In this document: positions 39,176 through 63,345 of the stretch, in pieces
Position numbering within the stretch: the stretch's first letter is position 1
Layout of the letters: each line of letters opens with the position of its first letter
Assembly: GCA_027485675.1 (NCBI GenBank)
Contig: JAIXQP010000025.1
Coordinates: 1-64,000, forward strand
Direction of reading: 5' to 3'
DNA: 64,000 bases
Origin: Terriglobales bacterium
GTDB taxonomy: Bacteria > Acidobacteriota > Terriglobia > Bryobacterales > Bryobacteraceae
Position numbers and translations under genes: made by a program
The notes under the pieces: model-generated
Databases searched by the model: none
What the model was told of the DNA's origin: nothing
Seen by the model: only the letters and a program-made list of their open reading frames with translations

Positions 39176-39251
39176 GCCACCCTAGCTCAGTTGGTAGAGC
39201 GGCTGATTCGTAATCAGCAGGTCGCCAGTTCGATCCTGGCGGGTGGCTCCA
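39176..39251 (+). tRNA. tRNA-Thr (anticodon CGT)
   Basis: A 76-base cloverleaf including encoded CCA. The acceptor pairs GCCACCC with GGGTGGC, followed by T73. The anticodon loop TTCGTAA gives anticodon CGT. The T-arm is GCCAGTTCGATCCTGGC. Its 3' half is the integration site of a genomic island, so the tRNA is reconstituted by the incoming element. Confidence 0.95.
39207..39251 (+). repeat. Left attachment core (tRNA-Thr 3' half)
   Basis: These 45 bases, from the anticodon loop to CCA, occur identically at 63130-63174. Duplicate tRNA 3' ends are the classical footprint of site-specific integration by a tyrosine recombinase. Confidence 0.88.
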
Positions 39252-39294
39252 AATCATTGAAACTAAACGCGTTAAGGAAATCAGATTTCGCGCT

Positions 39295-39321
39295 GACCTG
39301 CTGTCACAAAATCAGCAGGTC
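39295..39321. repeat. Inverted repeat near the left core
   Basis: GACCTGCTG (39295-39303) and CAGCAGGTC (39313-39321) are perfect inverted copies with nine bases between. The right arm is part of AATCAGCAGGTC (39310-39321), which repeats exactly a 12-mer of the tRNA (39212-39223) 98 bases upstream. The corresponding place beyond the right core (63233-63244) has one change. It may be a protein-binding site for recombination or a remnant of an earlier core. Confidence 0.6.
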
Positions 39322-39394
39322 AAGAAACGCTCACTCTGGCGGTCCTTTTATTTTCAATCGGTTACGGCCGATCGTCCGGACTTGGCAGCTCTGT

Positions 39395-39413
39395 CCTGTT
39401 CAGTTCCTGTTCA
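39395..39413 (+). repeat. Paired CCTGTTCA repeats, left end
   Basis: CCTGTTCA at 39395-39402 and 39406-39413, eleven bases apart (about one helical turn). Similar pairs occur at 63027/63039 and 63318/63329. They are candidate integrase arm-type sites. Confidence 0.6.
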
Positions 39414-39666
39414 AATCTTGCTGGCAGTCCCGCAAAGGAGCTCTCTGAGTTCCTAATTTGGACCTGTGTCCACTACGCCTTTGAGGCGATCCAATCCTGC
39501 CCAGAGACGTCCGTACGCATCCAGCGGCGATTCCGCGGTTCTCTTGCCAAGGCGAGCTACGGTCAAGCTTCAGCAGCGTAGAAACCTGAGCAGTTACCGT
39601 GGCCGCTTGACCGCAGAGTAGTCGAAGTCACGAGCAAGATTCGCGATAATCCACAAAGGGGTAGAT

Positions 39667-39891
39667 ATGTCGCGTGAACAAGCAATCCTGGAAGCGGTGC
39701 GAACACTTCCGATCGACAAGCAACAAGAGATCTTGAACCACGCCACCCGCCTACGCGACGAGGCAGCACCGAAAATGCCGCTCCGAAGCATCAAGGGTAT
39801 TCTTGCCGGCCGAGGAATTTCCGTGTCCGCCGATGACATCGACGAAGCCAGACGCTTGCGACCGCTCTCGCGGAGTTCGATCCATTCTTAA
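39667..39891 (+). CDS. VapB-like antitoxin, possibly truncated
   Basis: A 74-residue protein with a good Shine-Dalgarno (AGGGG, six bases before ATG). MSREQAILEAVRTLPIDKQQ and SADDIDEARR resemble the short antitoxins (DUF2281-like) that accompany PIN-domain VapC toxins, where the family usually ends EARREMW.NFPR. Here the sequence after EARR diverges (LRPLSRSSIHS), so the tail may be replaced or frame-shifted. No toxin gene is adjacent; a VapC remnant lies at the other end of the island. The function is inferred from the family. Confidence 0.5.
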   Translation: MSREQAILEAVRTLPIDKQQEILNHATRLRDEAAPKMPLRSIKGILAGRGISVSADDIDEARRLRPLSRSSIHS

Positions 39892-40103
39892 CGTCCATGA
39901 AAAGTTGGGCTTTAAGGGCTTTCCAATATTCTGCGGCTGACTCCAATTCGACTATTGCCCATGCGCCAGGAGCTTGGGAGCGCGCAGAACCGCTGTCAAT
40001 GGCGCTTCAACGGGAGTCGTTAGCCGCCGGGCGGAGCACTTCTTGCTCGCTGGGCCGCCAGCATAGCAGGATACAGCGCTTCGGACTCGGGCGAAATCAC
40101 GAG

Positions 40104-41522
40104 CTAAGCCACGGCCTCCCGGATCACCACACCGCCTGTGTCCGTCAGTCGCATATTGCGGCCTGCGTGATAGTGCATCAGCCGCATATCGTTCAACCCC
40201 ATCAAGTGCAGAATGGTAGCGTGCACGTCGCGCATTCGATAGACCTTATCCACCGCCCGCCACCCGAGTTCATCGGTCGCGCCTACCGTCACCCCCGGCT
40301 TCGAGCCCCCCCCAGCAAAGAACATCGTCATCGCTTTGGTGTTGTGATCGCGCCCAGCCTTATCCCGTAGATCCGCCGGATGGTCCGGGGTTCTGCCAAA
40401 CTCGCCCATCCATACGATCAGCGTCGAATCCAACAAGTTCCGCTGTTTCAAATCCTGAATTAGGCCCGCGATCGGCAGATCCACCTCTTGCGCATTCTTG
40501 GCGTGGCCCTTCACAATGTCCGTGTGGCTATCCCACGATTGGCTCGGCGTATAGAGCTGCACAAAGCGCGTCCCCTTCTCCACTAACTGCCGCGCCATCA
40601 AACAACGAGTTCCGAAGGACCGCGTGGTGTCTGAGTCCAGCCCGTACATCTTCCGGGTCGCCTCGTTCTCCTTGGCCAGGTTCAGTACGCCAGGTACCTC
40701 GGCTTGCATCCGAAAGGCCAGCTCGTAGGAATCAATGCGGCCTTGCAGATCCGGGTTGGTAAAGTTGCCGTCCAGATAGGCGTGGTTGTATTCCCGCAAG
40801 AGTGCCATCTGGTCTTGCATGTCCTTCGGACTCAGCTGACCAGCGGGGCGAAGGTCATTAATCGGATCGCCCTTCCACTGCATCATCGTCCCTTGATAGC
40901 TGGCCGGCAGGAACCCGGCCCCCCACTGCTGCGAGCCACTGAAGGGCAGCGCCCGGTAGTCGGGCAGCACCACGAACCCTGGTAAATTTTGATTCTCCGT
41001 GCCCAACCCGTACCCAACCCAAGCGCCCACCGACGGCCGTCCAGGTAAGACCAGTCCGGTGTTCATCAAGAACGTCGCGGCCGGATGGTTGCCGTTCTCC
41101 CCGGTGATCGTCTTCACGAAAGTCATATCGTCGACGCAGGTGGCAAGATGGGGAAACAGCTCCGACACATCCATCCCCGATTTTCCGTACTTCGAAAATT
41201 TCCACGGACTCTTCAGGATCAGCCGAGGCTTGGCGTACAGATCCGGCTGGTCCGTCCGCTTCTCGTTACTCCAATCGAGCACCGTGTTATCGAACTTCTC
41301 GAGCGCCGGCTTGGGATCAAACGTATCCATCTGCGCGACACCACCCAGCATCGTGAGAAAAATGCACGACTTGGCCCTCGCGGGATGATGGGGCGGTTTG
41401 GGCGCGAGCGGACTCGTTGAGGCTGCCATCAAGTCGGTATTCAGAAAGTCCATCAACGCCAAGCCGCCCGCGCCCACCAGGCTGCGATACAGGAAATGTC
41501 GTCTGTTCCATTCAGGATTCAT
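40104..41522 (-). CDS. DUF1501 protein, exported
   Basis: A 472-residue DUF1501 protein, related in fold to sulfatases/alkaline phosphatases. The start at 41522 gives NRRHFLYRSLVGAGGLALMD, a Tat-like N-terminus with an Arg pair. Further blocks are IFLTMLGGVAQMDTFDPKP, WGAGFLPASYQGT and VWMGEFGRTP. It is 4 bases after the PSD1 gene, with GGAG seven bases before the ATG. DUF1501 and PSD1 proteins are found as pairs in Planctomycetes and Acidobacteria; their function is unknown. Here they follow a TonB receptor, suggesting use of an imported or periplasmic polymer. Confidence 0.85.
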   Translation of the reverse strand: MNPEWNRRHFLYRSLVGAGGLALMDFLNTDLMAASTSPLAPKPPHHPARAKSCIFLTMLGGVAQMDTFDPKPALEKFDNTVLDWSNEKRTDQPDLYAKPRLILKSPWKFSKYGKSGMDVSELFPHLATCVDDMTFVKTITGENGNHPAATFLMNTGLVLPGRPSVGAWVGYGLGTENQNLPGFVVLPDYRALPFSGSQQWGAGFLPASYQGTMMQWKGDPINDLRPAGQLSPKDMQDQMALLREYNHAYLDGNFTNPDLQGRIDSYELAFRMQAEVPGVLNLAKENEATRKMYGLDSDTTRSFGTRCLMARQLVEKGTRFVQLYTPSQSWDSHTDIVKGHAKNAQEVDLPIAGLIQDLKQRNLLDSTLIVWMGEFGRTPDHPADLRDKAGRDHNTKAMTMFFAGGGSKPGVTVGATDELGWRAVDKVYRMRDVHATILHLMGLNDMRLMHYHAGRNMRLTDTGGVVIREAVA

Positions 41523-41526
41523 GAGG

Positions 41527-43929
41527 CTACTCCAAATAAACAAATTCGTTCAAATTGAAAAGAACCGTACCGAGGCGCGCCAGCGCTTCCTCGGGACGAC
41601 GGCCTTCATACAGTGTGCGCGCTCGTTCTAACTCCGCCCCAGTCGGCGGCCGCAGCAGCGCCAGGGCAAACGCCTTGTTGATCTGCTGCACCGGGTCCGC
41701 CCCAGCCAGTTCAATGACGCGCGCGGCAAACCGCTGCGCTTCTACTGCCGTCAGTTCGCCATTTAACAACGTTAGCGCTTGCGGCGCCACCGTCGTCACG
41801 CTCCGTCGAGAGCAGCTTTCGCTCATGTTCGCCGCGTCGAAAACTTCCATCAGCGGCATCGGTAGCGATCGGCGTTGAAACGCGTAAATCGATCGGCGAA
41901 GTTGCGCCTTTTCGTCCGACGGATACCATTTGAACATCTGGAAGCCTTGGGCCACTTCGTCCTTCACGCGGAAGAACATCCCTGGCCCGCCCGCTTGCCG
42001 ATTCAGCCCACCGCTAATGGCGAGAATCGAATCACGAAGCACCTCCGATTCCACCCGAATCCAGTTCATCCGTGACAGTAGCCGGTTCTCCGGATCGCTC
42101 TCGGCGATCTGTTTTGCTTCGGGGTGCCGGGTAGATTGGCGATAAGTGTTCGAGGTCAGCATCAAGCGGTGCATCGCCTTGACGCTCCACTTCTTCTCGA
42201 CGAACTGGGTGGCGAGCCAGTCGAGCAATTCAGGATGCGACGGCCGGTCTCCGTTCATCCCAAAGTCGGAGGGAGTGCGAACCAATCCTTCGCCAAAATG
42301 ATGCTGCCAAATCCGGTTTACCATCACGCGAGCGGTCAACGGGTTCGCCGGACTGGCGATCCATTCTGCCAGCGCCTGCCGGCGTCCGGATCGGTAGCGC
42401 CCGGCGTAGCCGATTTTCGCGGCTTCGCTCTTGCCGACAATCCGTTCCAGAAAGCCCGGCTCAACCGACGCACCCTTCGCCGACCGCTCCCCTCCCGCTA
42501 GAACAAACGTGGGTTCGATATCCATTACGGCGGGCGGTGCCACTTCGTTTACGCTGTAGGCAATTGGTTGGTAGCGAGCCAGGTCCAGTGTGAGTCTCTG
42601 GACCTGCTCGGTTGCGTCTTTATGCCGCTTCCGGTCGCCCACCGTCAACAACGGGCTATCCTTGTCCGCGAGCGCCTTCTGCAAACTGTTGCCTTCTTTC
42701 AGCTTCGCTTGTAGCTGACGCTCCACAGACTTCACTTGTTCCTGCGCCACCTCCAATTCGTCCTCGAGCCGGCGGACCTGCTGTCGCATCTCAAGGCGCC
42801 CCTCCGACTCGAGAAACGGCATTGGCCGCTCATCAATGCGAGTCGAGGCAAAGAACGCCTGCATCCGATAGAAGTCCTTCTGAGGGATCGGGTCGTACTT
42901 ATGGTCGTGGCATCGCGCACATCCAACGGTAAGCCCGAGAAAAGCTTGCGTTGTCGTGCCCGTCATTTCGTTCAGCCAGTCCAGCCGCAACTGCGCGTCG
43001 AAATTCGCATCCCTCTCCCACGGGCCCATCCGCAGAAAACCTAACGCCAGAATCCCCTCGTTTTCGATCTGCCCGCCACGTACTGCCGGCTTCCGTTGCA
43101 TCTCGTCCCCGGCCAGTTGTTCTTGCACGAAAACGTCGTAGGGCTTGTCGTTGTTGAACGCACGGATGACGTAGTCACGATAGCGCCATGCTGTCGGCCG
43201 CTCCCCGTCGATCGCGAACCCGTCGCTTTCGGCGAAGCGGACCAAGTCGAGCCAGTGCCGGGCCCAACGCTCTCCGTAGCGGTGGTCGGCCAGCAGCCTG
43301 TCAACTAACTTCTCGTAGGCGTTGGCAGCCGGATCCTCTAAGAATGCGCGGGCTTCCGCCTCCGTGGGGGGGAGTCCGATGAGGTCAAAATAAACCCGTC
43401 GCAGCAACACCCGTCTGGATGCCGGTGGTGCCGGGGCAAAGCCCTGCTGCTCCAGCTTCGACAACACAAACGCATCAATCGGATTAGCGATTGAGCTGGC
43501 ACCGCGCAGCGCCGGCACCTTCGGCGCCACCGGCGGCGAGAACACCCAGCTTGCATGATCCTTCCCGGCGACCGTGGTCTCTCCAACCGCCTTCATCGAA
43601 TCGATTGCTGCCTCCAACTCGGCTATCAAGCTCTCGGGCAGTGCCTTGCCTCCGATGGGCATCCGCGGGTTCTTTTCCCCCCGGACAAACTGCATGATTA
43701 GACTTCGCCCCGCTTGTCCAGGGCTGATCGCAGGACCGCGCTTGCCACCCTTAAGAAGTTCAGCCAAGTTAGTGACCGAAAGGCCGGCTTGCGCCTTCGG
43801 TCCGGAATGGCACCCCGCGCAATTGTTCTGAAGGATAGGCTGAATTTTGTCACGAAACGCCGGGTCTTCGGGCGCAGCGCTGGCTACGCCCAGAGCAACA
43901 ATGACCGGAACCAATATAATGGGCCTCAT
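41527..43929 (-). CDS. PSD1 / planctomycete cytochrome c protein (DUF1549-DUF1553)
   Basis: An 800-residue exported protein. After a signal peptide it has a planctomycete-type cytochrome c domain with CAGCHSG, then DUF1549 (RRVYFDLIGLPPTEAEARAF and WARHWLDLVRFAESDGF), a second CARCHDH motif, a coiled stretch near residue 390 and DUF1553 (TARVMVNRIWQHHFGEGLV). AGGAG lies five bases before the ATG. It likely carries electrons or acts on a substrate in the periplasm, together with the DUF1501 protein encoded 4 bases on. It is 19 bases after the TonB receptor gene. Confidence 0.9.
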   Translation of the reverse strand: MRPIILVPVIVALGVASAAPEDPAFRDKIQPILQNNCAGCHSGPKAQAGLSVTNLAELLKGGKRGPAISPGQAGRSLIMQFVRGEKNPRMPIGGKALPESLIAELEAAIDSMKAVGETTVAGKDHASWVFSPPVAPKVPALRGASSIANPIDAFVLSKLEQQGFAPAPPASRRVLLRRVYFDLIGLPPTEAEARAFLEDPAANAYEKLVDRLLADHRYGERWARHWLDLVRFAESDGFAIDGERPTAWRYRDYVIRAFNNDKPYDVFVQEQLAGDEMQRKPAVRGGQIENEGILALGFLRMGPWERDANFDAQLRLDWLNEMTGTTTQAFLGLTVGCARCHDHKYDPIPQKDFYRMQAFFASTRIDERPMPFLESEGRLEMRQQVRRLEDELEVAQEQVKSVERQLQAKLKEGNSLQKALADKDSPLLTVGDRKRHKDATEQVQRLTLDLARYQPIAYSVNEVAPPAVMDIEPTFVLAGGERSAKGASVEPGFLERIVGKSEAAKIGYAGRYRSGRRQALAEWIASPANPLTARVMVNRIWQHHFGEGLVRTPSDFGMNGDRPSHPELLDWLATQFVEKKWSVKAMHRLMLTSNTYRQSTRHPEAKQIAESDPENRLLSRMNWIRVESEVLRDSILAISGGLNRQAGGPGMFFRVKDEVAQGFQMFKWYPSDEKAQLRRSIYAFQRRSLPMPLMEVFDAANMSESCSRRSVTTVAPQALTLLNGELTAVEAQRFAARVIELAGADPVQQINKAFALALLRPPTGAELERARTLYEGRRPEEALARLGTVLFNLNEFVYLE

Positions 43930-43948: not shown

Positions 43949-46900
43949 CTAGAAGGTGAACTTCCATCCTAATTGGACGTTTCTTTCACTATACTTGGCG
44001 GTGATCAATCCAAAATTGCCCGCTCGGGGACTGCCGGACGGGTTGCTCAGGAGCGGATGATTCGGGAAATTGAATACCTCAAATCGAAGCTGCGACCTCA
44101 CCCGCTCGCTGATCGGAATGCTCTTGAACAGCGCGACGTCCCAGTTCTGGAAGCCGGGTCCGCGGATAATGTTGAGCCCCGCGTTGCCAAACGTGCCGTC
44201 CCGCGGACGAGTAAATGCCCGCGTATTGAACCACGGCAAGCCCAAGCCCCTTTCGTTCACCGCCACGCTGCCTGTAACGTCCCAGGGTTGATTGGCGCTT
44301 CCTTGTCCCACGCCCGCCACATCAACTCCGTCAGTGACGGAAATCAGGCTGCCGGAGCGAAAGAACATGACGCCCGACAACTGCCACCCTCCCAACGCTT
44401 TACCCTGCCAACCCTTCTGGCCGCGATAGAACGGCAGCTCATAAATATAATTGATGTTTAACAGGTGCGGCCGATCCATGTCATCGAGAGACCGAACATT
44501 TCGATAAGCATCAAACGGCGTTAGGATGTCGCTGATATTCTTCGAGAAAGTATAAGAGACCCCGAAGCTCAATCCGCTCCGAAAGCGGCGATCCAGGCTG
44601 AACTGCATCGATTGATAGTTGCTATGTCCGTCGCGGGTCGTAACGTCAACTTGGCCTAACCCGAGGTAAGGCCGCAATGCATTGGCGTTGAGCCCGGGAT
44701 TCGCTTGCAGCGTACCAGCCACCATTTGGTTCACATTCCGGGTTCGCTCCTGGTTAGTCCCCGATTTACCCACATACGCTATCTCCGCCAACAACGAGCC
44801 CGGCAATTCTCGTTGGATCGAAAGGCTATAACTAATGGCGGTCGGATACTTGAACCGCAAGTCGATTCCCCGTATATAGAACGGGAAATCGCGCCGGGTT
44901 GCTCCGCCCGGGCGGTCCACCTCGCCGTTAAACACCTGGACCTGGATCTGGTTAGGCGCGTTGCGGAAAAGCGACCCTTGATTGTGCATTTGCCGGTGAT
45001 GAAAGATGCCACCTCCGGCGCGGATCACCGTTTTTGCTCCCAGCCGATATGCCAAGCCCAACCGCGGTGCAAACGCATTCGTATAAGTGTCAGCAAAGCC
45101 TCGGGGCAAGCCACGGAACAACCGATCCACGTTTGGCAGCGTGGATCCGTTCGCCCGTCCGCGAGCCGAATCGGGGAACCCGTTACCGGGCAGGACCACT
45201 CCGTTATAGGCGTCGCCCGAAACAATGTAACCTCCCCTCGGATCAATCACGGCGCGCCTCGCAGGATCAAAGAAACGGGCATCAAAATTGGCGATGTCGT
45301 TCCACTTCGCATACCAGGGCTGGTGCAAAGAATGGCGAATTCCCATTTCGACGGTTAGATTTTTGGTCGCGCGCCAAGTGTCTTGGACGTACGTTTCAAG
45401 CGAGTTGCTTCGCAGCAGCGTGTACGCTGCCGGCCCCTGCTCGGTATAGACGTCGAAGTAGCCAAGCGCCGCGTTGGCCACCGCTAGACCCGAAGTTAAT
45501 GGGTGACCCGTATCTAGGAAATTGAACTCCCCGTTTTGCTGCGCGCCGCTTTGATCGTTATTGTTCTGCTGGTCGTGCGAGAGCCATCCGCCAAACTTTA
45601 TCGTGTGCTTCGACCCCTTTACCCAAGTCATGTTCCCAGCGGCCATGTACATTGGCCCCGAGGAGCTAACCGGCCGCGACGACCCATCCAGCGTCGCAAA
45701 CCCATTGATCAAGCCACGAGGGATGCGATCCTGGATCCGCTTCACCCCAGGGACAATATAGGGGAAGTTCATGCCGTATTGGCCCCGCAGGTACCGCGGC
45801 TGCCCTTCGTTGTCGTAAATCCCAATATAGACAACGTCATTGGCGGCGGTAAACGTGAAGTCGGTGATGATGGTTGGTGACAACGTGCTGGTCACGTTCA
45901 ACGCACCGGTCATGTTTGGGCGGTCCCACCGCGAGTTCGATCGATCGAGCCCGGAGACAAACGGAGCGTCTTCGTAGTGGAGATAGTTGTTGCCCGTAAA
46001 GTTGATCCGATGCTTCCCGGCGTAGTAGTCGATCCGAAACGTGTCCTTCCGGCTTTCTCGCGGGTTTGGCAATGTTTTGATCCAGTTTTCCGATCCTTGC
46101 AGGAAGCCTGGCGTGGGCGAAGGGTAGGCGTTCAAAACACCGATGCCGTTGGCGCTAAGGCGATTGGCCGGGATGATATTGCCCGCAAATGGAACGTTGT
46201 TTGCGAGCGGATCATTCACGAGCCGAGTTCGCCGAAAGAACGTATTGGCCGGGTTCAGCAGCTCCGCAAAATTACCTTGGCGCATCGCATCGCTCGGGAC
46301 CGTCGCCGTCACCGTCTGCTCCCGCCGCCAGATCAGCCATTCCTGCGACCCGAAGAAAAAGAGCTTGTCTTTGTTCTTATTGAACTTGCCCGGAATGTAT
46401 ACCGGTCCGCCAATGGCATAACCCGGCTGGTTGAACCGAAACGGCGCGGCGCGGCGATTGTCGTCTAATACCGGACTCTGGTTCCGCGTCCAACTATTAG
46501 CGTCGAGCGCCGAGTTGCGGAAGAACCACCACCCTGTGCCGTGAAAATCCTTTGTCCCGCTCTTGGTCACAAAACGCATCTGGCCGTCCATGGCCCTTCC
46601 GTACTCCGCCGGGTAGGTAGACGTGAGCAGTTGCACTTCCTGAATCGTGTCCACGTTAAGTAGCCCGACTTGCGCCGATCCTGTAAAATCCCCGCGGGTC
46701 CGCATCGCGTTGACCCCGTCAATCGTGATGTTGTTCCCGTTCCGTCGACCTCCATTGATTGAAAAGCTTTCGTGAAGGTTATTCGGATTGAAGTTGTTGA
46801 AGTTGCCGCCGACCACTCCGGCTTTGAGCAACGCGAGATTGATCGGGTTTCGGCCGTTCAACGCAAGATCTGTGATTTGACGCGCCTCGACTACGCGGCC

Positions 46901-47311
46901 GATCTGCGCCGTCTCCTGCGACAATTACACTCCCGTCGCCTCGACCGTGATTGACTCGGTCACAGCACCTAACTCTAAGCTGACGTCGACCGTACTGCGG
47001 GCGGCCACGTCGACTTTCACTCCCGTTCGCGTGACCCGCTTGAATCCCGCCGCCTGCACGCTCACATCGTACAAACCCACCGGCAGATTAGTGAGAACGT
47101 ACGAACCGTTTTCACCTGTGTCAACCGAGCGAGCCACACCTTGAATACTGGTCGCCGTAACTCGCGCCCCAGTTACGCTCGCGCTGCTGGCGTCGAGCAC
47201 CGTGCCGGCAATTTGGCCTTGGTCTTGTTGGCCAAAAGCGGCAATGGCCGCCCAGCCTAAAAAGGACGCCCAAACGGCTGTCCGGATCCGCAGTATCCTG
47301 GTCTCTTTCAT
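43949..47311 (-). pseudogene. TonB-dependent receptor broken by in-frame UAA
   Basis: A receptor of about 1,120 codons in one frame. It starts at ATG 47311 (AGGAG nine bases upstream) with a signal peptide and a carboxypeptidase-regulatory-like domain (GQIAGTVLDASSASVTGARV). In the linker before the plug, SITVEATGV is followed by TAA (46927-46925) and, with no change of frame, by LSQETAQIGRVVEARQITDL, the usual continuation. The plug (INGGRRNGNNITIDGVN) and 22-strand barrel then run to the terminal aromatic WKFTF at 43949. A single base change (for example CAA to TAA) explains this. Unless read through, only a 129-residue N-terminal fragment would be made. PSD1 and DUF1501 genes follow. Confidence 0.82.
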
Positions 47312-47478
47312 CGTGGAAGGCTCCTGTACAGCGTGGTACGCAATGTTCGAGGGGAGTCTACCACCTTTTTTGATTCTGGAATAGGGGGTATTTGGTGGCT
47401 TGTCGCCAGTATTTGATCTCCGGTTGAATTCACACATGAAGTGTCCGCTTAGAAAAAAGCGATGAGGAAGCTGGCTGA

Positions 47479-47919: not shown

Positions 47920-47944
47920 CACTCCCCCGCGGACCATATATTCT
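47916..47944 (+). promoter_or_regulatory. Probable promoter of the downstream TonB receptor
   Basis: A perfect -35 TTGACA (47916-47921) is followed by TATTCT (47939-47944) at a 17-base spacing; TATATT (47937-47942) at 15 bases is an alternative. The receptor ATG lies 22 bases downstream. It begins inside the end of the transposase fragment. Confidence 0.6.
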
Positions 47945-47965
47945 TGCCGCCGGACCCTCCCATCA

Positions 47966-51503: not shown

Positions 51504-51572
51504 CAAACACGACCCAACCCGATACCATCCCTTCGGAATTCCACATCCAACTTTAGAAACGGACTTTCCTCC

Positions 51573-52745: not shown

Positions 52746-52755
52746 GCCAACCAGT

Positions 52756-54317: not shown

Positions 54318-54325
54318 TCGCCCCG

Positions 54326-55369
54326 CTAACGCCGCCCGCGCCGTAGTTCCTGTAACGCGCGTATTTCCCGGTCCGCATCCGCTGTCCGTCCTAACTTTCG
54401 GTAAATCTGCGACAACTGCAAATGGGCCGCCTCCGCGAGTGCCGAAGCCGGCTCCGCCTGCACCACTTTCTGTAAGGCGCCTTCTGCTCCGCTTAGGTCT
54501 CCCGTCGCCGCTAACGCCTTGCCCAGCGCCAAATGCGTCTCCGGCATCCCTGGCTGCAGTTGCTCCGCCCGCTGCAGTTCCGTTATCGCTTCGGCCGCCT
54601 TCCCCAGGTTCATCAACGTCAGACCGAGCTTATACGCCGCCATTGCCGACATCGGCGCCATTCGCGCTTCCGCCCGGAACTCCGGCTCCGCCCGGGCGTA
54701 ATCGCCACCGGCAAGGTACAGCTGGCCGATCGCCAGATGAACGCCTCGCAGGTCGGCTCGCGCCGCCAGCGCCGCTCGAAAGTGCTTCTCCGCCTGCTCC
54801 CTTTGGCCGGCGCCTGCAGCAGCTTCACCCAACATCTGCTGGACGCGCGTGGCTCCGTCGGGCTGCGCGCGCAGCCGCTCAAACAGGTCTTTGGACAACC
54901 GTCCGTGGGCGTGGCTCAGGTAATAAGTCAGGTCCGGATCCTCGGGTCGCTGCAGCAACGCCGCCTCCAATTTGTCAACAGCATCCCGCGTGCGCCCCGC
55001 CTCCAATAACGCGATACCCAGCAGGTCCGCTGCCTGCGCCCTCTCGAGATGAGGAATTGCTTCCACTGCCGCTCCTTGGGCCAGCAAGGCTGTGCCCAAC
55101 ATCTGCTGTGCCCCTGGCAGATCGGCATTCAATTGCAGCGCCCGCCGCAATGGGCCGGTTGCTCGCGCATAATCTTTCTGCTGAAAGTAGACGCTTCCTA
55201 GATTTACGTGCGCCGCGGCCAGTTCCGGCGCCAGTTCGGCCACACGCTGAAACTCCCGCGCGGCCCCATCCAGGTCACCGGCCGCTTTTGCCCGCAGCCC
55301 AGCTTCCACGTGTTGACGCAGCTCCGGCGTCACGGCTTGGGCCAGCGCGAGAAAAAATAAGGGCAGCAT
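54326..55369 (-). CDS. TPR protein, exported
   Basis: A 347-residue protein with signal peptide (MLPLFFLALAQAV) and about eight tetratricopeptide repeats, for example AAREFQRVAELAPELAAAHV, NLGSVYFQQKDYARATGPLR and LTLMNLGKAAEAITELQRAE. TPR repeats hold protein partners. Its ATG at 55369 shares a base with the TGA of the CRTAC1 gene (TGATG), so the two are coupled. In an operon with a TonB receptor it could help assemble or tether periplasmic components. Confidence 0.85.
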   Translation of the reverse strand: MLPLFFLALAQAVTPELRQHVEAGLRAKAAGDLDGAAREFQRVAELAPELAAAHVNLGSVYFQQKDYARATGPLRRALQLNADLPGAQQMLGTALLAQGAAVEAIPHLERAQAADLLGIALLEAGRTRDAVDKLEAALLQRPEDPDLTYYLSHAHGRLSKDLFERLRAQPDGATRVQQMLGEAAAGAGQREQAEKHFRAALAARADLRGVHLAIGQLYLAGGDYARAEPEFRAEARMAPMSAMAAYKLGLTLMNLGKAAEAITELQRAEQLQPGMPETHLALGKALAATGDLSGAEGALQKVVQAEPASALAEAAHLQLSQIYRKLGRTADADREIRALQELRRGRR

Positions 55370-56997
55370 CACTCTTTCTCCTCTACCGTAACTATGGGGC
55401 CTGGCGCAAGCTGCTCCGTCTGCCGCCGCCCTCCGGGCCAAGTAATTTCCACGGTCCTAGGCGCGCCAGACAGGTGGACACGAATGTCTCCGGCCGACAA
55501 ATAGCTCCCCGCCCCGGTGGCATACACTGTCTGTGCTCCCGCCCGAACGATCGCGCCCACACCGTCCCGATTGGCCCGTCGGCCCACGAGGCGCAACGTC
55601 ACGCCAGGCCGCGCCGAACGGTTCAGCAAGACCATCGGGGCACCGCCCAGCACGGATACCACCGCGTCCATCTTTCCGTCGTTATTGATATCCCCAAAGG
55701 CCGCGCCCCGTCCCGCCACCGCCGGTAGCCCTAAGTCCACCGGAGCGAACTTGCCCGCCACTCCCCGATATAACGCAGGAGGTTCCAAATAGCGCAGTCC
55801 CGAATGAATCCGCTCCACGTTATCCAGGACATGGCTCTGCGCCGCGAAGATGTCCTTGGAGCCGTCGTTGTCAAAGTCGTGTAACCCGACGCCCCATCCG
55901 GAATGCCGCGACGTCAACCCGGCCAGCCCGCTGGACAGACTCGTGTAGCTGAACCTCCCTTCACCCTCATTGCGGTACAGGGCAAACTTCTCCAGCGCTA
56001 GATTCGTCACCACCAGATCCGGCCGGCCATCGTTGTCGTAGTCGCCGAAGGCCGCGCCCATACCCGCATAGCTGCGCGCATCGTCGGAGAGCGCCACGCC
56101 GGCTTCCAAGGCGCGCTCGACAAATCTCCCGTTCCGCTCGTTGTGGAACAGATACTGCTCCATCCCGTCGTTGGCCACAAAGACCTCCGCGAACCCGTCG
56201 CCGTCATAGTCGCTCACCGCCACTCCCATTCCTTTCCCGATCACGCCTCCAACTCCCGACTCCCTGCTCACGTCCCGAAACCTTCCGCCGCCCTCGTTGT
56301 GGAACAGCACATTCGCCACGCCATTGAACTTGTCCGGCCGGCAGTAGGCATGGAACGGAGTGCCGCAGAGGATGTTGCGCGCCAGGTCCCAGTCCAGATA
56401 CCGGGCTACAAAGAGGTCCAGCCTCCCGTCGTTGTCGTAGTCGAAAAATGCCGCGGAAACGGACCACCCTTCCACCGCCGCCTCTGTCGTTGCGGTAAAG
56501 GTGCCATTCCCGTTGTTGCGATAGAGAACCGTACCGCCATAACCGGTCACATAGAGGTCCGCGTCACCATCATTGTCCACGTCTCCGGCAGCCACGCCCA
56601 TGCCGTAGATGTTCGGCCCACCCCACAGTCCTGCCCGCGCCGTAACGTCAACGAAGGTCCCGTCCGGCTGCTGCCGGTAGAGCCGGTTGGCGTACGCCGC
56701 CTCCGCGCGCCGGAAGTAGGCAGGCAACCGCACCGGGTCGTCCAGCTTCCCGCCATTCACGAGGAAGATGTCCAACCGGCCGTCACCGTCATAGTCCAGC
56801 AACGCCACGCCGCCGCCCATCGTTTCGATCAGATATTTCTGTGTGGTAGGCGAGTGGCGATGGACAAAAGGCAGCGTCACGCTCCGGAAGAGCGAAAGGC
56901 TCTGCGCCGTTACCACGGCGGCGCAGAGCCAGAGGAGGTAACGCAGGGGCAAGCTAGAACTGCAGCCGGAGCGCGAATTGGATAAGGCGCGGATCAT
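55369..56997 (-). CDS. CRTAC1 / ASPIC-UnbV protein
   Basis: A 542-residue exported protein with FG-GAP-type calcium-binding repeats such as DYDGDGRLDIFLVNGG, DVDNDGDADLYVTGYGG and DINNDGKMDAVVSVLGG, forming an integrin-like propeller, and a C-terminal ASPIC/UnbV domain (VEITWPGGRRQTEQL). Proteins of this type bind calcium and may act at the cell surface. The ATG at 56997 overlaps the end of the TonB gene by 44 bases; a TTG at about 56952 just after that stop is an alternative start that would directly precede the hydrophobic signal. It is coupled to the TPR gene. Confidence 0.88.
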   Translation of the reverse strand: MIRALSNSRSGCSSSLPLRYLLWLCAAVVTAQSLSLFRSVTLPFVHRHSPTTQKYLIETMGGGVALLDYDGDGRLDIFLVNGGKLDDPVRLPAYFRRAEAAYANRLYRQQPDGTFVDVTARAGLWGGPNIYGMGVAAGDVDNDGDADLYVTGYGGTVLYRNNGNGTFTATTEAAVEGWSVSAAFFDYDNDGRLDLFVARYLDWDLARNILCGTPFHAYCRPDKFNGVANVLFHNEGGGRFRDVSRESGVGGVIGKGMGVAVSDYDGDGFAEVFVANDGMEQYLFHNERNGRFVERALEAGVALSDDARSYAGMGAAFGDYDNDGRPDLVVTNLALEKFALYRNEGEGRFSYTSLSSGLAGLTSRHSGWGVGLHDFDNDGSKDIFAAQSHVLDNVERIHSGLRYLEPPALYRGVAGKFAPVDLGLPAVAGRGAAFGDINNDGKMDAVVSVLGGAPMVLLNRSARPGVTLRLVGRRANRDGVGAIVRAGAQTVYATGAGSYLSAGDIRVHLSGAPRTVEITWPGGRRQTEQLAPGPIVTVEEKE

Positions 56998-59900
56998 TGT
57001 ATTGTCCGCTAATCACGCCGAACTGCGGATTGCCCAACTGCGTGCCCGGATAACCGAATTGCACCCGGTTGAACAGGTTGAAGATCTCCGTGCGGAACTG
57101 CAAGCCGAAGCGCTCGTTGATCTGCGTGTTCTTGAAAATGGTGAAGTTGTAGTTGGCGATGCCGTGTGAGCGGACATCGGTCAACGACCGCGCCACGTTA
57201 CCGAACTGGAAGGCCGGAGTCGGTGTAAAAGCCGACGTTTCAAACCACTTGCCCAGCCGCGACTGTGCTGTGCCTTCGAGACTGGCGCTGACGCCCGTCG
57301 AGTTCGGCCGCTGGCCGCCGCCCTGCGAGTTCGTGGTATTGACGGCCATACTCATACTGAGAGGATTGCCGCTCTGGAAGGTGGTGATGCCATTCACACC
57401 CCAGCCGCCCACCAGCCGGTCCGCGAAGCCGCCGGCGCTATTCATAAACTTCTTGCCCTTCCCGAAAGGCAGATCGTAAATAAAGCTCATCACCGCGCGG
57501 TGCGGCACGTCGTACAGAGTGACCGAACGCTCCGCAGCCAGGTTGTACCAGTTCTGTACACCCATGCCGCCGCCGGGTTCGAGCCACGCCGTCAACGTAT
57601 CGGTGTCGCTGATGAGTTTCGCCCAAGTATAAGAGACGAGCAGCGAAGCACCTTGCGCAAAACGCTTTTCCAGCTTCAACTGCGCTGAATGATAGATCGA
57701 GTTGCGATTCATCGGTGAGACCTGGTTGAAGCCCGTGTATTGGGGATAGGGCCGCAACAACTGGGCCCGCTGCACCGTCGGCTGCGCCAGTGCGCCCAAC
57801 TGCACCTGACCAACAAACGGATTCGGCACCTGCTGCGTCAGGGATGCGCCCTGCGACAGGAACTCGACCGGCAATTGATTCAGTTGTTGGTTCGGCCCAG
57901 GCAGATGCGTTCCCTTGGAACCCGCGTAAGCCAGGTCGATCGCCATGCCGCCCAGGATCTCGCGCTGCACGTCGAAGTTCCACTGTTGGGTGTTCGCTCT
58001 CGGATCCGTATATAGCGGAGCGCTCACGCCCTGGCCGTAGAACAGCCGTTGGATGTTGGCACTCCGGCCCGGCGCAACGATGATGCCGTTCGGAAACGGG
58101 TTCGAAAGGCGGTCCGCCGGCGTGATGCCGCCATCGGGCGAACCGAAATACGGCGTCGTGTAGGCGTTCGAGATATCGCCGTTCGGCGCCGTGCCGAAGG
58201 CCACGTCGTTCGGCAAATAGAACAGGCCCCAGCCCGTACGGATGACGGTCTTGCTGTTCAAGCGATAGGCCAGACCCAGGCGTGGCGAGATCACGTTGCG
58301 CAGCTCGGTGTTGTTGCGGCTCGGGCTGTCCGGCGAGTTCACCAGGCCAAAGCGGCCCTTGAAGTTCAGCCCGCCGCGTCCGCTAAGCTCATTCTCGGCG
58401 TTCGGCAACAGCACCACCATTCGGTCAAATCGTTCGGACCAGGGGCCCATCTGCTCCAGACGGATGCCGAAGTTCAGCGTCAGCTTCGAATTCACCTGCA
58501 TCTGGTCGCCCAGGTAGTAGCCTCGGTAGATCATCTGGCCTGCGACGAAGCTGTTATGCGTGAGGCCGCCACCGCTGCCGTGGCCCAGCAGGAACGACGC
58601 GAAGCCATTCCCCGTACCCGCCGCCGCCAATGGATTGACGCTGGTGAATAGCGCGTCGAAATTGAACGAGCCCGAGGGGTTGTTCTGCTGATAGTAATTG
58701 TGTGTCCCCCGGCGCCACTCGCCGCCGAATTTCACGGTGTGCTTGCCCCAGATCTTGGTCACATTGGGGCTGAGCGAGAAGATGTCGTTTCGCGCCACAA
58801 TCGTACTGCCTGTGCCGTTGGTGCCGAAAACGCCGTTGTAGCCGGTGACAATTGGGATCGGCTGCACGCGAACGGCGACGGCCGTATTCAGCGCGGCCGG
58901 CCAACCCAGGCTCGTCAGGTCGAAGCCAGCCGAGGCCGCCGTGCGGTCATAGTGGTAGCGGGAGAAGCTGGCCCGGAGATCCAGGAACATAGTGGGCGTA
59001 AGCGAGTAGGTGTCGCCCAAGACCGCCTGGTTCGTATTCATGTCTTCGGTGCACCGGTCGACGCAGGTCTTGGTGCCGTAGGGATCAATCGGCAGGTTCA
59101 GATTGCGCCAGTACGTGTAGCGCGCGAAGACGCGCTGCTTGTCGCTCACCGTATGATCCACCCGGTAGTTCTGCTGGTTTTGGTCGCCGCCGACGCTGGC
59201 GTTCGCCGTGAAGTTGTTCACCGCGGTGAATTGCGAACCGGGGGAGTTTGCGCGTCCCCACAACGGCGTCATCGCACGCGCCGCGCGGTCAATCCGGTTG
59301 TCCGGAATGATGTTGCCCGGAAACGGCGTCCGCGAAATCGTGCCGCCGGGGCAGGCCGGATTGCCCAGCCGTCCACAGGTGGTGAGCGGATCATAAATGG
59401 GAACCAGCGCGCCCGCACCGTTGCGGACATCGGAGAAGTTACCCGCCCGCATGGGGTCGGTCGGCACCGAAAATACATAGGACGATCCCTGCCGCAAACG
59501 GAAGCCCTCATACGATCCAAAGAAGAACGTCTTGTCTTTGCGGATTGGCCCGCCGAACGTGACGCCAAACTGATTCTGCGTGAAGGCCGGACGTTTCACG
59601 CCCGCGCGATTGTTGAAGAATGTATTCGCGTTCAAGCTGCGGTTGCGCAGGAACTCGTACGCGCTCCCGTGAAAACTGTTCGTGCCGGACTTGGTGGTCA
59701 GGTTGATCACTCCGCCGGCCAACCGGCCGAATTCGGGGCCTAGGTTGTTGGTCTGCACCCTGAACTCCTGCACGGCGTCCTGCGAGGGTATCAGCATGGT
59801 GTGGTTGACGTAGTTCGAGTTATTGGGAGCACCGTCGATGTAGGAGGCACTCTGATTGGCTTGTCCGCCGCCGATCTGGAAGTTCGCCCAGGCAAATGGA

Positions 59901-60418
59901 TTCGCGCCGGTGGGCGTCGCGCTCGATTGTCCGCCGGGCACCACGCCGGGCACCAGCGCCACCAGACTGAAGACGTTGCGGCCGTTCAAGGGCATTTCCT
60001 GCACCTTGCGCGCTTCCACCACTTGACCGAGTGACGCGTTCTCTGTTTGCAGCAGCGGTGTCTGTTCCGTCACTTCGATCACCTGATTCACATCGCCCAA
60101 CTGCATCGCGGCGTCAATTCGCACGGCGCTCTGCACTTCCACGGTCACGTTCTCGCGGACCAGACGCCGGAAGCCCTGCTTTTCCACTTCCACGCGGTAT
60201 TGCCCGGGCGGCAGATTCACGAATTGATAATTGCCGGCGCCATCGGTAGTGCTCGCGCGGCGGTCGGCGGTACCCATGTTGAGGAGTGTGACGGAGGCTT
60301 GCCCGATCGATGCGCCGGTGGAGTCATTCACCGTACCGACAATCGAGCCGTAGAAGGTCTGCGCTGGCGCGCCAAGACATAGCAGTAACAAAACATAGCA
60401 GCGTGCTAGGAGTCGCAT
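56954..60418 (-). CDS. TonB-dependent receptor with CarboxypepD_reg domain
   Basis: A 1,154-residue outer-membrane receptor, apparently intact, and first gene of the receptor-CRTAC1-TPR operon. After the signal peptide it has GSIVGTVNDSTGASIGQASV, then the plug (IGGGQANQSASYIDGAPNNS; EFGRLAGGVINLTTKSGTNS) and a barrel ending RLIQFALRLQF. The ligand is unknown. The upstream region is short: a solo insertion-sequence end begins about 94 bases before the ATG, so the promoter may have been changed by that element. Confidence 0.92.
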   Translation of the reverse strand: MRLLARCYVLLLLCLGAPAQTFYGSIVGTVNDSTGASIGQASVTLLNMGTADRRASTTDGAGNYQFVNLPPGQYRVEVEKQGFRRLVRENVTVEVQSAVRIDAAMQLGDVNQVIEVTEQTPLLQTENASLGQVVEARKVQEMPLNGRNVFSLVALVPGVVPGGQSSATPTGANPFAWANFQIGGGQANQSASYIDGAPNNSNYVNHTMLIPSQDAVQEFRVQTNNLGPEFGRLAGGVINLTTKSGTNSFHGSAYEFLRNRSLNANTFFNNRAGVKRPAFTQNQFGVTFGGPIRKDKTFFFGSYEGFRLRQGSSYVFSVPTDPMRAGNFSDVRNGAGALVPIYDPLTTCGRLGNPACPGGTISRTPFPGNIIPDNRIDRAARAMTPLWGRANSPGSQFTAVNNFTANASVGGDQNQQNYRVDHTVSDKQRVFARYTYWRNLNLPIDPYGTKTCVDRCTEDMNTNQAVLGDTYSLTPTMFLDLRASFSRYHYDRTAASAGFDLTSLGWPAALNTAVAVRVQPIPIVTGYNGVFGTNGTGSTIVARNDIFSLSPNVTKIWGKHTVKFGGEWRRGTHNYYQQNNPSGSFNFDALFTSVNPLAAAGTGNGFASFLLGHGSGGGLTHNSFVAGQMIYRGYYLGDQMQVNSKLTLNFGIRLEQMGPWSERFDRMVVLLPNAENELSGRGGLNFKGRFGLVNSPDSPSRNNTELRNVISPRLGLAYRLNSKTVIRTGWGLFYLPNDVAFGTAPNGDISNAYTTPYFGSPDGGITPADRLSNPFPNGIIVAPGRSANIQRLFYGQGVSAPLYTDPRANTQQWNFDVQREILGGMAIDLAYAGSKGTHLPGPNQQLNQLPVEFLSQGASLTQQVPNPFVGQVQLGALAQPTVQRAQLLRPYPQYTGFNQVSPMNRNSIYHSAQLKLEKRFAQGASLLVSYTWAKLISDTDTLTAWLEPGGGMGVQNWYNLAAERSVTLYDVPHRAVMSFIYDLPFGKGKKFMNSAGGFADRLVGGWGVNGITTFQSGNPLSMSMAVNTTNSQGGGQRPNSTGVSASLEGTAQSRLGKWFETSAFTPTPAFQFGNVARSLTDVRSHGIANYNFTIFKNTQINERFGLQFRTEIFNLFNRVQFGYPGTQLGNPQFGVISGQYNDPRLIQFALRLQF

Positions 60419-60511
60419 CCCGGGATTCTATATAGATGAGAAGCGTAAAGCAACGGTAATGCCAGATGTTTTTGTGAACAATTAAAGCGCTTACGTACCG
60501 AACGCAATCGA

Positions 60512-60764
60512 CTGTCGTTCTCGGAAACCTCGTCTTGACGTGTGACCGGACGGAATCCACAGCCTTCCTGGTTTTTGAGCGGGCGTCTTCGGACTTCACT
60601 CGCCCGATGTCGTCGGCTCGCAACGCCTCTGGCCGCTTCGCCAAAAGCCTCGTGGCCGCGGCCGCGGTGGCCGTCAATGAGGCGGCGCAAGGGCACAGAC
60701 CTTGTGTTGGATGGAATCGCGCCGAAGATGCCTTTATGCGGCGCGGCGCTCGTAGCGATGATGG
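60512..60764. repeat. Solo end of the IS481-like element
   Basis: CTGTCGTTCTCGGAAACCTC (60512-60531) equals 53021-53040, and similarity continues with small gaps to GATGCCTTTATGCGGCGCGG and its flank (about 60764), matching the end of the transposase gene (TACGAGCGCCGCGCCGCATAA on the minus strand). The rest of the element is gone. It lies in the same direction as the first copy, upstream of the TonB operon. Confidence 0.72.
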
Positions 60765-60905
60765 CGTCTGCGACCTGCCAAGTCGAGACCGCCTGCCGCC
60801 CCCCGCACGCGTTTGGTTGTGTTCAGTTAAGGTCTGCACGGACATCCATGCAGTTACGCACAGCCCTAAACCCGAGTCTTGATCCAATTCGCTGAACGGA
60901 CACCC

Positions 60906-61656: not shown

Positions 61657-61893
61657 ATCCAATACCTCGTCGAGAAGGGAAAACTCAGTGTTGACGACCA
61701 ACGGATGGTAGTGGCGGCTGTCGACGACGTTCAGAATCCTGCTCGCTTGGTGCCGATCGACCGTGCCGTCGTCGACGCTCTCGGCCAAGTCCACCGGCAG
61801 GAAGTCCCCGACATGCCTGACCGGATTATTGCCGCGACCGCTCCTTCACTCGACGTACCGCCAGTGAGCCGTAATCGAAAGATCCGCGCATAG
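61657..61893 (+). pseudogene. VapC-like PIN-domain toxin fragment
   Basis: IQYLVEKGKLSVDDQRMVVA, LVPIDRAVVDALGQVHRQEV and PDMPDRIIAATAPSLDVPPV with SRNRKIRA match the C-terminal half of VapC PIN-domain toxins. The N-terminal half, with the first catalytic Asp, is missing; the fragment begins where the IS701 remnant ends. A TAG at 61891 is followed in frame by SIQTIW and another stop, as in the usual C-terminus. It cannot be active. A VapB-like antitoxin lies at the other end of the island. Confidence 0.6.
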
Positions 61894-61987
61894 TCGATCC
61901 AAACGATCTGGTAGGGGCGTCTTCAAGAGGTGTGGAAGGCCCCAAACTGGCCAGACCATGAGTCGCGCGCACGTAAAGTCCCGTGTC

Positions 61988-63013
61988 TCACCCTGATCGT
62001 CGAACAATCGCTGTGGCAGGCGCCAGTCGAAGATATTCTCGGTCCTTACAGATTGTGGCCGGACACTCCGGCCAGAACGTCCGTACCTGCGCCAGCCACT
62101 GTTCGAGCATTGCCCGGAATCGCCGAGGTCGCTTATACTCGACCGACCCCAACTGGGCGGTCAGTCCATATTCACCAAAAAGCGGAATCCGCTCCTCCCC
62201 TTTCGCGACGAAGCAGCGATAAGCCAGCCACACAAACAAGTCCAAAGCTCCCGGAGCAGAACCGAAGATCTTGACCACTTCGATATCGACCGGGATCGGA
62301 TGAGCCATCACCTCGGCAAAGAACTCGTCGCTGAGAACGACTGTGTTCTCGAACTCCTCCCCCGGAACCGACTGCGAGCGATCGCGATCGTACCAGATCT
62401 TGGCTTCGCGCAGGAAGTTAAACCGCGACCGTTGCACCACGCGCGCCCGTAGACCCGTTGATTCCGTCCCAAAGAAAATCGTCGCGCCAAAGATCCTTTC
62501 GAAAGCGGCAACCAGCCGACGGTACTCTTTGCCTCCCTTCGCCATGCCGAATGTATCTAGCATCTGAGCAGCTGACTTGAATCGGATGACCTGGCTCTGT
62601 TGGCGGACTGCAAGAGTGGCCAAGAAGATCGGCACCAGCCGATCCTGCCCGTACGGCAAACCAAACTGCGGGTGCCCGGTGATCTGCAACGTGAACGATC
62701 CGTTTCGCCGCTCATAGACGAGAGTCGAACTGGCTGGTCGGCGCACAGGTAGGCCGCAAAGGACGAAAGGCCTCGCCGCGAATCCAAGCAACTGTTGCGC
62801 CTTGTCCCGCCGCTCTCGAACGAGCTCAATTGCCTCGACGTGGCGAACCTGGCGTTTCGAAACGAGAAATTCGCCGAAAGCGCCTTCCATGATGGACTTT
62901 GTAGATTCAAGCTCATGGCTGTCCCTGTAAAACGCACCGGCCGATCGGGACGAGTCCCTCACAGCAAACTCCCAGCTATCGAGGCACGGTAAGTACCGGC
63001 CTCCGGCAGGCAT
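61988..63013 (-). CDS. Plasmid-type RepA replication initiator (RepA_C-like)
   Basis: A 341-residue protein resembling plasmid RepA (PF04796-like) initiators, which bind iterons and start plasmid replication. Typical blocks are FTLQITGHPQFGLPYGQDRL, VPIFLATLAVRQQSQVIRF and LDLFVWLAYRCFVAKGEERI. The N-terminus is uncertain: the ATG at 63013 or one at 62890 (about 40 residues in) could serve, and neither has a clear Shine-Dalgarno. Codon use differs from the core genes (more TTC/CGC/AAG mixed with AT-rich codons). Its position close to the right attachment core suggests an integrating plasmid-like element. Confidence 0.68.
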   Translation of the reverse strand: MPAGGRYLPCLDSWEFAVRDSSRSAGAFYRDSHELESTKSIMEGAFGEFLVSKRQVRHVEAIELVRERRDKAQQLLGFAARPFVLCGLPVRRPASSTLVYERRNGSFTLQITGHPQFGLPYGQDRLVPIFLATLAVRQQSQVIRFKSAAQMLDTFGMAKGGKEYRRLVAAFERIFGATIFFGTESTGLRARVVQRSRFNFLREAKIWYDRDRSQSVPGEEFENTVVLSDEFFAEVMAHPIPVDIEVVKIFGSAPGALDLFVWLAYRCFVAKGEERIPLFGEYGLTAQLGSVEYKRPRRFRAMLEQWLAQVRTFWPECPATICKDREYLRLAPATAIVRRSG

Positions 63014-63026
63014 CTTGGACCATCGC

Positions 63027-63046
63027 CCTGTTCAACAACCTGTTCA
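63027..63046 (+). repeat. Paired CCTGTTCA repeats beside the right core
   Basis: CCTGTTCA at 63027-63034 and 63039-63046, twelve bases apart, about 85 bases before the right core. Together with the left pair they match the layout of arm sites on both sides of a phage-type attachment site. Confidence 0.6.
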
Positions 63047-63129
63047 ACTACTGCCCAAACAGCATCGAACGGCCTTCTCAGTGGACGCGGAGTGTCCCTG
63101 TTTGCAGTGGTTTGCGAAGCAAAAGTTGT

Positions 63130-63174
63130 TTCGTAATCAGCAGGTCGCCAGTTCGATCCTGGCGGGTGGCTCCA
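63130..63174 (+). repeat. Right attachment core (tRNA-Thr 3' half copy)
   Basis: Identical over 45 bases to 39207-39251. The 5' half of the tRNA is absent, so this is not a tRNA gene but the right end of the integrated island. Confidence 0.88.
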
Positions 63175-63345
63175 GATCATTGAAAAACAACGAGTTGCGG
63201 AAATGACGTTTCGCTCTGACCTGCAGTCACAAAATCAGCAGCTCAAGAGAAGCTTGATACAGCAGCCCTTTTGTTTTCAATGTATTGCGATCGGTTGTCT
63301 CGAACGGGCAGTTGTGTCCTGTGCAACACCTGTTCAAATCACTGA
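63175..63345. repeat. Sequence beyond the right core, similar to the left island end
   Basis: It resembles 39252-39420, including TCACAAAATCAGCAG, a TTTTCAAT stretch and paired repeats CCTGTGCA (63318-63325) and CCTGTTCA (63329-63336). This is what a second, related element integrated at the same tRNA would look like. Confidence 0.62.

Follow-up and report, generated by a model that had tools for sequence, protein, structure and literature searches.

A probable tandem array of related integrative plasmids at a tRNA-Thr(CGT) gene in a Terriglobales bacterium

Repeated cores, arms and a RepA-type gene at tRNA-Thr(CGT)

The window analyzed here is the first 64,000 nucleotides (nt) of contig C7 (JAIXQP010000025.1) of a Terriglobales bacterium whose genome (G000) is a draft assembly of 54 contigs, 97.4% complete. 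It contains a tRNA-Thr(CGT) gene, found intact at 39176-39251 (+) by ARAGORN, and a mismatch-free second copy of the 45 nt at the 3' end of that gene, hereafter the core (39207-39251 and 63130-63174, 23,923 bp apart). The likeness continues past the core: 39204-39417 and 63127-63340 are 79% identical over 214 nt with the core included, and the stretch after the core is by itself 75% identical over 165 nt (75-79% across both comparisons). The pair scores E = 4.3e-48 in a whole-genome Blast search and is therefore not a chance repeat. The region thus has the borders of an integrative element, a direct repeat of the tRNA 3' end on both sides with the tRNA kept intact.

A sequence-only reading of this DNA had already noted an exact 45-base repeat bounding 23.9 kb and some 170 bases of similarity after each core, and had proposed an accreted island built by two related elements inserted in turn, about 14 kb from oriC. 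Both repeats were borne out, and the relatedness also stands, since the post-core similarity of about 165 nt is best read as the attachment arm shared by two related elements; the number does not, as there are at least three units and a remnant. The distance to oriC is consistent with open reading frames (ORFs) at 20.1-25.2 kb whose translations we take to be of dnaA, dnaN and gyrB type (dnaA at 23894-25246, -), an origin there being only likely.

When the tRNA end plus arm was searched against all 54 contigs, four matches were obtained at E <= 0.001, all on C7 (at 39176, 63127, 129093, and 152775), and there was no core match in the genome beyond these. Wide occurrence of the repeat elsewhere in the genome, named earlier as a point against an island, was thus not found. 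Reading of the sequence shows all 45 nt of the core preserved in the third copy (C7:129096-129140); the fourth has degenerated and matches at 90% over 49 nt. The cores delimit unit 1 (39252-63174), unit 2 (63175 to C7:129140, ~66 kb), and unit 3 (C7:129141 to ~152823), followed by a 3-kb remnant from ~C7:152823 to C7:155870.

Tandem CCTGTTCA motifs occur on both sides of the core, at 39395/39406 and 63318/63329 in the outer arms of units 1 and 2 and at 63027/63039 in the inner arm of unit 1. These arms may serve as integrase sites. By eye, the outer arm of unit 1 also has an imperfect inverted repeat, CTGACCTGCTG / CAGCAGGTCAA, at 39293-39323, which overlaps a 12-nt partial core copy at 39310-39321.

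The last gene of unit 1 (61988-63013), absent from the sequence-only reading, is of the plasmid RepA type, with RepA_C and RPA scores above the curated cut-offs (39.8 versus 26 bits and 38.5 versus 27 bits). Such a gene stands at each of the three right-hand cores, intact in unit 1, intact in unit 2 (93% identical), and as a remnant in unit 3. A search of 72,556 plasmid records gave 458 matches, all below 60% identity; among the 25 listed (26-33% identity), 24 were annotated as RepA or replication initiation proteins, including that of pSB102, and 50,697 phage records gave one weak match. PHROGs held no family for the protein at E <= 0.001, NCBIfam gave only matches far below cut-off, and a PDB sequence search gave one chance-level match (E 0.84). 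The AlphaFold2 model was poor (mean pLDDT 49.7) and was left unused.

Both arms and RepA survive in units 1 and 2. Unit 3 retains only the RepA remnant and showed no similarity to the outer arm in the whole-genome search, and the last stretch lacks a right core. This decay, rising with distance from the tRNA, fits an order of insertion in which newcomers landed on the tRNA side, as far as one array can suggest it.

None of the genome's four PF00589 matches lies on C7, so the earlier statement that no integrase is visible inside holds for tyrosine recombinases. The four are on other contigs; two are of Xer-like length and one is near tRNA-Leu. It had also been proposed to look past 64000 for an integrase and a third core. 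Core copies are indeed there, as described above, but no tyrosine-type integrase was recognized up to C7:199,999, and a hidden Markov model (HMM) of five relatives' integrases had no match in C7:1-199,999. Short ORFs at 39594-39839 and 39667-39891, next to the outer arm of unit 1, had no Pfam match. The sole "integrase core" match among the 15 window ORFs covered by the Pfam scan is of the transposase type (rve_3, 53223-53711). No relaxase, mating-pair or type IV secretion system family was found among the proteins scanned, which represent part of the ORFs.

The site and the RepA family in related genomes

The left flank had some match in 18 of 19 same-genus genomes (own included) and a long match in eight relatives; in G161 it extended only ~1 kb. 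The earlier suggestion to seek an empty site in relatives succeeded in G004, where tRNA-Thr ends at L153:1062 (equivalent to C7:39251) and, after 28 bp, L153:1091 corresponds to C7:155871, from which point the two genomes match at 89% up to C7:169862. The insertion would accordingly span ~C7:39252-155870, and by this comparison about 116.6 kb appears to have been gained at the site, made up of three units between cores (~24, 66, and 24 kb) and the 3-kb remnant. The view of the locus as an accreted island at tRNA-Thr(CGT) is upheld by this empty site and by the further cores downstream.

G149 carries a single shorter element (~10.5 kb) between tRNA-Thr (C169:23243) and a core copy (C169:12770), with a broken RepA gene (91% identical) followed by the same right flank (C7:155867 on). 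The start of the C7 remnant resembles the tRNA side of this element. G149 also shares 5.3 kb with unit 1, 47750-53021 at 98.8% identity, while its flanks are 82-90% identical, which looks like a sign of recent lateral exchange. The site in G202 holds a short remnant with a RepA fragment, and G161 has other core-linked DNA, including another stretch similar to the arm (72.6%) and segments like those of unit 1. The possibility that relatives carry the same 24 kb in the same place with no empty site is therefore not what we see, though the DNA is not cleanly absent everywhere (G149, G202, G161). In G113, G169, G177, and G206, the 1.5-10 kb examined beyond the tRNA contained no right-flank match.

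RepA matches occurred in at least 60 of the 200 family genomes sampled, counting its own, and in at least 28 of 76 genera. The records named (25 loci) were from Acidobacteriota, except one labelled Proteobacteria, and those with finer names were mostly Bryobacterales or Candidatus Sulfopaludibacter. We examined 57 RepA starts, which remained from 61 distinct ones after removal of one duplicate and three with less than 300 nt upstream; matches that were short or started after query residue 60 (broken copies, such as the unit 3 remnant) were left out. Within 500 nt upstream of RepA, 48 of the 57 had a match to a tRNA (40 nt or more, 80% identity or more) that ends no more than 3 nt from the tRNA 3' end, compared with 24 of 2000 control windows away from RepA. 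These loci are mostly the best RepA matches, and the tRNA-linked share may not hold for distant copies. The figures supersede a looser count (51/58 RepA starts versus 111/1100 controls) whose control windows could hold the core itself. The targets were Gly(CCC) (26), Thr(CGT) (8), Gly(GCC) and Met (3 each), and Gly(TCC), Val, Pro, and Leu (2 each). The tRNA fragment begins at tRNA position 25-34 and is antisense to RepA, except for Met. In four genomes (L055, L057, L059, L060), the distance from an intact tRNA-Met(CAT) to the aligned RepA start downstream is exactly 167 nt, and the two have the same sense. In the present genome, contig C11 stops 185 nt past the 3' end of a tRNA-Met (186-262, L149), perhaps because of another repeated element that broke the assembly.

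A tyrosine integrase was present upstream of RepA in 12 of the 57 junctions, with DNA taken up to 2.5 kb, and was on the strand of RepA in 11. Ten of these 11 are Gly(CCC)-type, with the integrase frame ending 341-440 nt before the aligned RepA start and the core in between (three of the ten are clear integrase fragments); the other (L136) is Thr-type, ~1.2 kb from the core. An element-encoded integrase thus occurs in some relatives of the RepA element family and was not found on C7:1-199,999. The integrase of L083 matches the PHROGs integrase (6e-47). By eye, this protein and that of L092, both Gly(CCC)-type, look divergent at the usual H-x-x-R and H/W positions, and they match PF00589 only at ~1e-11 to 1e-13. 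The layout is complete in G104, a near-complete assembly of four contigs, in which an integrase lies 150 bp after tRNA-Gly(CCC) (C3:2458040) and points at it; ~73 kb further on come RepA (C3:2532780-2533646), a core, another integrase (99.5% identity with the first), and a RepA fragment (2548788). An integrase on G156:C57 (229.7 kb) was considered as the partner of a Thr-type RepA 79 kb away and rejected, no tRNA being found in the stretches examined around the integrase.

Between core and RepA, at least two copies of TGAACAGG are found in 7 of 8 Thr-type loci and in none of the 49 others. A paired GxGTAAT motif is present in 27 of 31 Gly-type loci, 0 of 8 Thr-type loci, and 3 of 7 without an assigned tRNA. 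Both motifs were picked after viewing the same sequences, which makes the counts descriptive and not a test. L065, which is Thr-type in core and arm, groups apart from the remaining Thr rows in the RepA tree, and its branch is long; a single Thr RepA clade was rejected by the approximately unbiased (AU) test (p = 0.0002; 48 rows, with 5 of the 8 Thr rows long enough for the tree). The long-branched rows L146 and L048 were left out of this test, and the Thr group was named after seeing the tree. Given the distribution of TGAACAGG by target and the discordant position of L065, the arms follow the tRNA target, and hence probably the integrase, rather than RepA. For the same reason, the idea that the TGAACAGG repeats are RepA iterons is disfavored.

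Origin of the array

We consider it very likely that the locus is a tandem array of related tRNA-targeted integrative plasmids whose integrase has been lost, an accretion resembling that of cis-mobilizable elements (CIMEs), and that the window holds unit 1 and the start of unit 2. In its complete form, as in relatives, the element would be a circle with the order integrase (int), attachment site (attP), repA. A tyrosine integrase would recombine attP with the ~45-nt tRNA 3' end and rebuild the tRNA, giving the integrated order tRNA, core, int (pointing at the tRNA), cargo, repA, core, and RepA would drive replication of the circle. Every insertion would leave a usable tRNA end, and units could pile up. 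As in CIMEs, both attachment sites are kept and integration genes are absent, and the units are presumably immobile at present.

Several observations weigh against this account. The array rests on one draft assembly, and the empty site is seen in one of the eight relatives with the left flank (G004). No integrase is seen in 45 of the 57 junctions, of which 42 of 57 had at least 1.5 kb examined, and none of the Thr-type elements seen has an integrase proven to be its cognate one. Integrases do lie near a Thr core in G201 (~125 bp after it, in a contig-end fragment) and G054 (~1.2 kb away), neither tied to the RepA family. A family-wide search (237 genomes) found the outer arm only in its own genome, yet there is the 72.6% match in G161; the same search identified no integrase-bearing Thr-type left end. 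Nine of the 57 RepA starts lack a qualifying tRNA match, and the tRNA-Met group (3 of 48) departs from the standard layout, with a whole tRNA in the same sense as RepA. Finally, a copy of the Thr core lies 4.5 kb from tRNA-Thr in G135, with no RepA among the matches listed, which indicates that not every core-bounded piece belongs to the RepA element family. The core copy bounding this piece (L161, G135:C37) is exact, and another kind of element may use the same tRNA-Thr site.

It is also conceivable, though quite improbable, that one large element inserted once and then duplicated its right-end module (RepA, arm, core) internally. The RepA genes of units 1 and 2 are indeed 93% identical, and the right ends of both have 91-92% DNA identity to that of the G149 element. 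Their outer arms, related yet more diverged (75%), and the differing cargo, in which only TonB-type receptors are common to units 1 and 3, speak for separate units, as does G149, where a lone short unit with this right end occupies the site. Graded unit numbers in relatives are partly seen as well, with none in G004 and one in G149.

Alternatively, the RepA-type protein itself might direct integration as a new type of integrase. It is the gene that recurs at the attachment site (48/57) and is widespread in the family, and most junctions have no integrase in view. The idea was dropped once relatives showed a tyrosine integrase across the core, in the expected place, and we now regard it as very unlikely. 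Tyrosine integrases usually use a core running from the anticodon loop to the tRNA 3' end, as here, RepA phylogeny does not fully track the target, and the protein resembles listed plasmid RepA proteins. Misassembly of several loci at the repeated tRNA end is just as hard to credit: the genome is in 54 contigs and attachment repeats are common assembly break points, but the copies differ in sequence (RepA 93%, arms 75%), the junction of right end and right flank recurs in G149, a separate assembly, and G004 has the two flanks joined.

For the array of integrative plasmids, one can further speculate, with rather low expectation, that closure of the circle acts as a replication switch, placing repA downstream of int and turning replication on only after excision. 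The ten Gly(CCC)-type junctions have this arrangement across the core; scans of two junctions for promoters and terminators found no more than in shuffled sequence. If the switch existed, units without int but with attachment sites and repA would be satellites profiting from an integrase in trans, and whole pathways, for instance the polyketide unit of 66 kb, could travel on such satellites.

Cargo and comparison with known systems

The features of the window are listed in Table 1. Unit 1 encodes TonB-type receptors, DUF1501, PSCyt/PSD1, UxuA-like, TPR, and FG-GAP proteins, with transposase debris and RepA. Two stretches in it, 53020-53260, which overlaps the transposase fragment, and 60511-60771, are related to each other (81-90%) and are probably insertion-sequence debris.

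Table 1. Features at the tRNA-Thr(CGT) locus (window coordinates)
Feature	Position	Strand	Basis
tRNA-Thr(CGT), target gene, kept intact	39176-39251	+	ARAGORN
45-nt core, copy within the tRNA (from anticodon loop to 3' end)	39207-39251	+	exact repeat at 63130-63174
Outer arm (P'-like) of unit 1; CCTGTTCA at 39395-39402, 39406-39413	39252-39417	+	75% identical to unit 2 arm; motifs read
Place of the tyrosine integrase in relatives; none recognized here	39418-40103	-	layout of relatives; integrase HMM
Cargo: DUF1501 protein	40104-41543	-	Pfam 5.5e-135
Cargo: PSCyt1/PSCyt2/PSD1 protein	41527-43929	-	Pfam
Cargo: TonB-type outer membrane beta-barrel	43949-46924	-	Pfam OMP_b-brl_4
Cargo: carboxypeptidase regulatory-like domain protein	46925-47572	-	Pfam
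Cargo: TonB-type outer membrane receptor, within G149-shared 47750-53021 (98.8%)	47966-51394	+	Pfam, genome comparison
Cargo: UxuA / xylose-isomerase-like TIM barrel protein	51291-52745	+	Pfam
Transposase debris (rve_3)	53223-53711	-	Pfam
Cargo: TPR protein	54326-55441	-	Pfam
Cargo: FG-GAP repeat protein	55369-56997	-	Pfam
Cargo: TonB-type outer membrane receptor	56954-60418	-	Pfam OMP_b-brl_4 5.4e-220
RepA-type plasmid replication initiator (341 aa) at the right end of unit 1	61988-63013	-	Pfam RepA_C 7.6e-10, RPA 1.2e-9
Inner arm (P-like) between RepA and core; CCTGTTCA at 63027-63034, 63039-63046	63014-63129	+	sequence reading
45-nt core, second copy: unit 1 end / unit 2 start	63130-63174	+	sequence repeat
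Outer arm (P'-like) of unit 2; motifs 63318-63325 (one mismatch), 63329-63336	63175-63340	+	arm comparison
Start of unit 2, running to exact core C7:129096-129140	63341-64000		core matches

Past the window, unit 2 contains a polyketide/peptide cluster (C7:65015-125800, L009-L012). Two ORFs of 6143 and 6735 aa have repeated KS, KR, DH, and ACP domains and a C-A-PCP-TE end, with no Pfam acyltransferase domain in the scanned parts (E <= 1e-8; for the 6143-aa ORF the scan began at about codon 670). They are followed by a ketosynthase, a thioesterase, and a phosphopantetheinyl transferase. The unit also encodes an asparagine synthase, an enoyl-CoA hydratase, an HMG-CoA-synthase-type protein, and P450s (three Pfam-confirmed); there are also two ABC transporter proteins and a discrete acyltransferase/FabD-type protein. 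We take this to be a trans-AT polyketide/peptide cluster with a beta-branching cassette. The HMG-CoA-synthase-type protein occurs in 5 of 237 family genomes, own included (E <= 1e-20), and within the genus only here and in G202 (96%). A G202 contig (L197, L198) carries part of the cluster at 87-91% DNA identity, where the backbone is ~81% identical; this copy was not found linked to a tRNA-Thr core, the contig ending within the cluster. Unit 3 encodes a TonB-type receptor, a phosphoesterase, and the RepA remnant, together with carbon-phosphorus (C-P) lyase proteins (PhnI, PhnJ) and phosphonate-binding and transport proteins (C7:136117-151571, L012, L013). PhnJ is present in 2 of 19 genus genomes, own included, and a more distant version of the C-P lyase region (73-75%) was seen in G203 (L199). 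The polyketide and C-P lyase cargo are both accessory.

The locus thus shows, in an acidobacterium and near a likely replication origin, integrative plasmids stacked in an order that can be read. Entire pathways came in with the units: genes of nutrient-uptake type, a trans-AT-type polyketide/peptide cluster, and phosphonate breakdown. The frequency of RepA in the family also makes the module of RepA and attachment site a handle by which such islands can be located in draft genomes, including islands that retain no integrase.

The accretion mechanism is already known, and we found no published description of the element family: a literature search for int-att-repA elements in Acidobacteriota gave none in titles and abstract openings, most subscription journals lying outside the search. 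The candidate islands of Candidatus Solibacter usitatus are likewise acidobacterial and tRNA-linked, with integrases and plasmid- or phage-like fragments, and the parts of their description available to us mention neither tandem attachment sites nor an int-att-repA family (PMC3174227). The conjugative plasmid pSB102 (AJ304453.1) has a RepA 31% identical over 82% of the query and is recorded as a circular plasmid (MOBP, MPF_T), unlike the integrated units here.

As far as the portions seen describe them, CIMEs, their accretion at an attachment site, and integrative and mobilizable elements (IMEs) with RepA or Rep_3 initiators are established (PMC5704250). In CIMEs and in tandem accretion of IMEs or integrative and conjugative elements, units bounded by attachment sites and without integration genes are likewise stacked at one target end; in that account's terms, our array differs in its acidobacterial host, in that no integrase-bearing partner was found in it, and in that its units keep a plasmid RepA gene or remnant at the end (PMC5704250). 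IMEs with a plasmid-type initiator include SGI1 and BcenGI2 (Rep_3) and GISul2 (RepA/RepC) (PMC5704250). From these same passages, SGI1 (trmE) and BcenGI2 (a tRNA-Ala gene) likewise combine a tyrosine integrase with a gene 3' end as target, and the initiator may maintain the excised circle, as we propose here (PMC5704250). Relative to these three as described there, no relaxase or transfer family appeared among the proteins we scanned, and the initiator is of the RepA_C/RPA type and lies directly beside the attachment site (PMC5704250).

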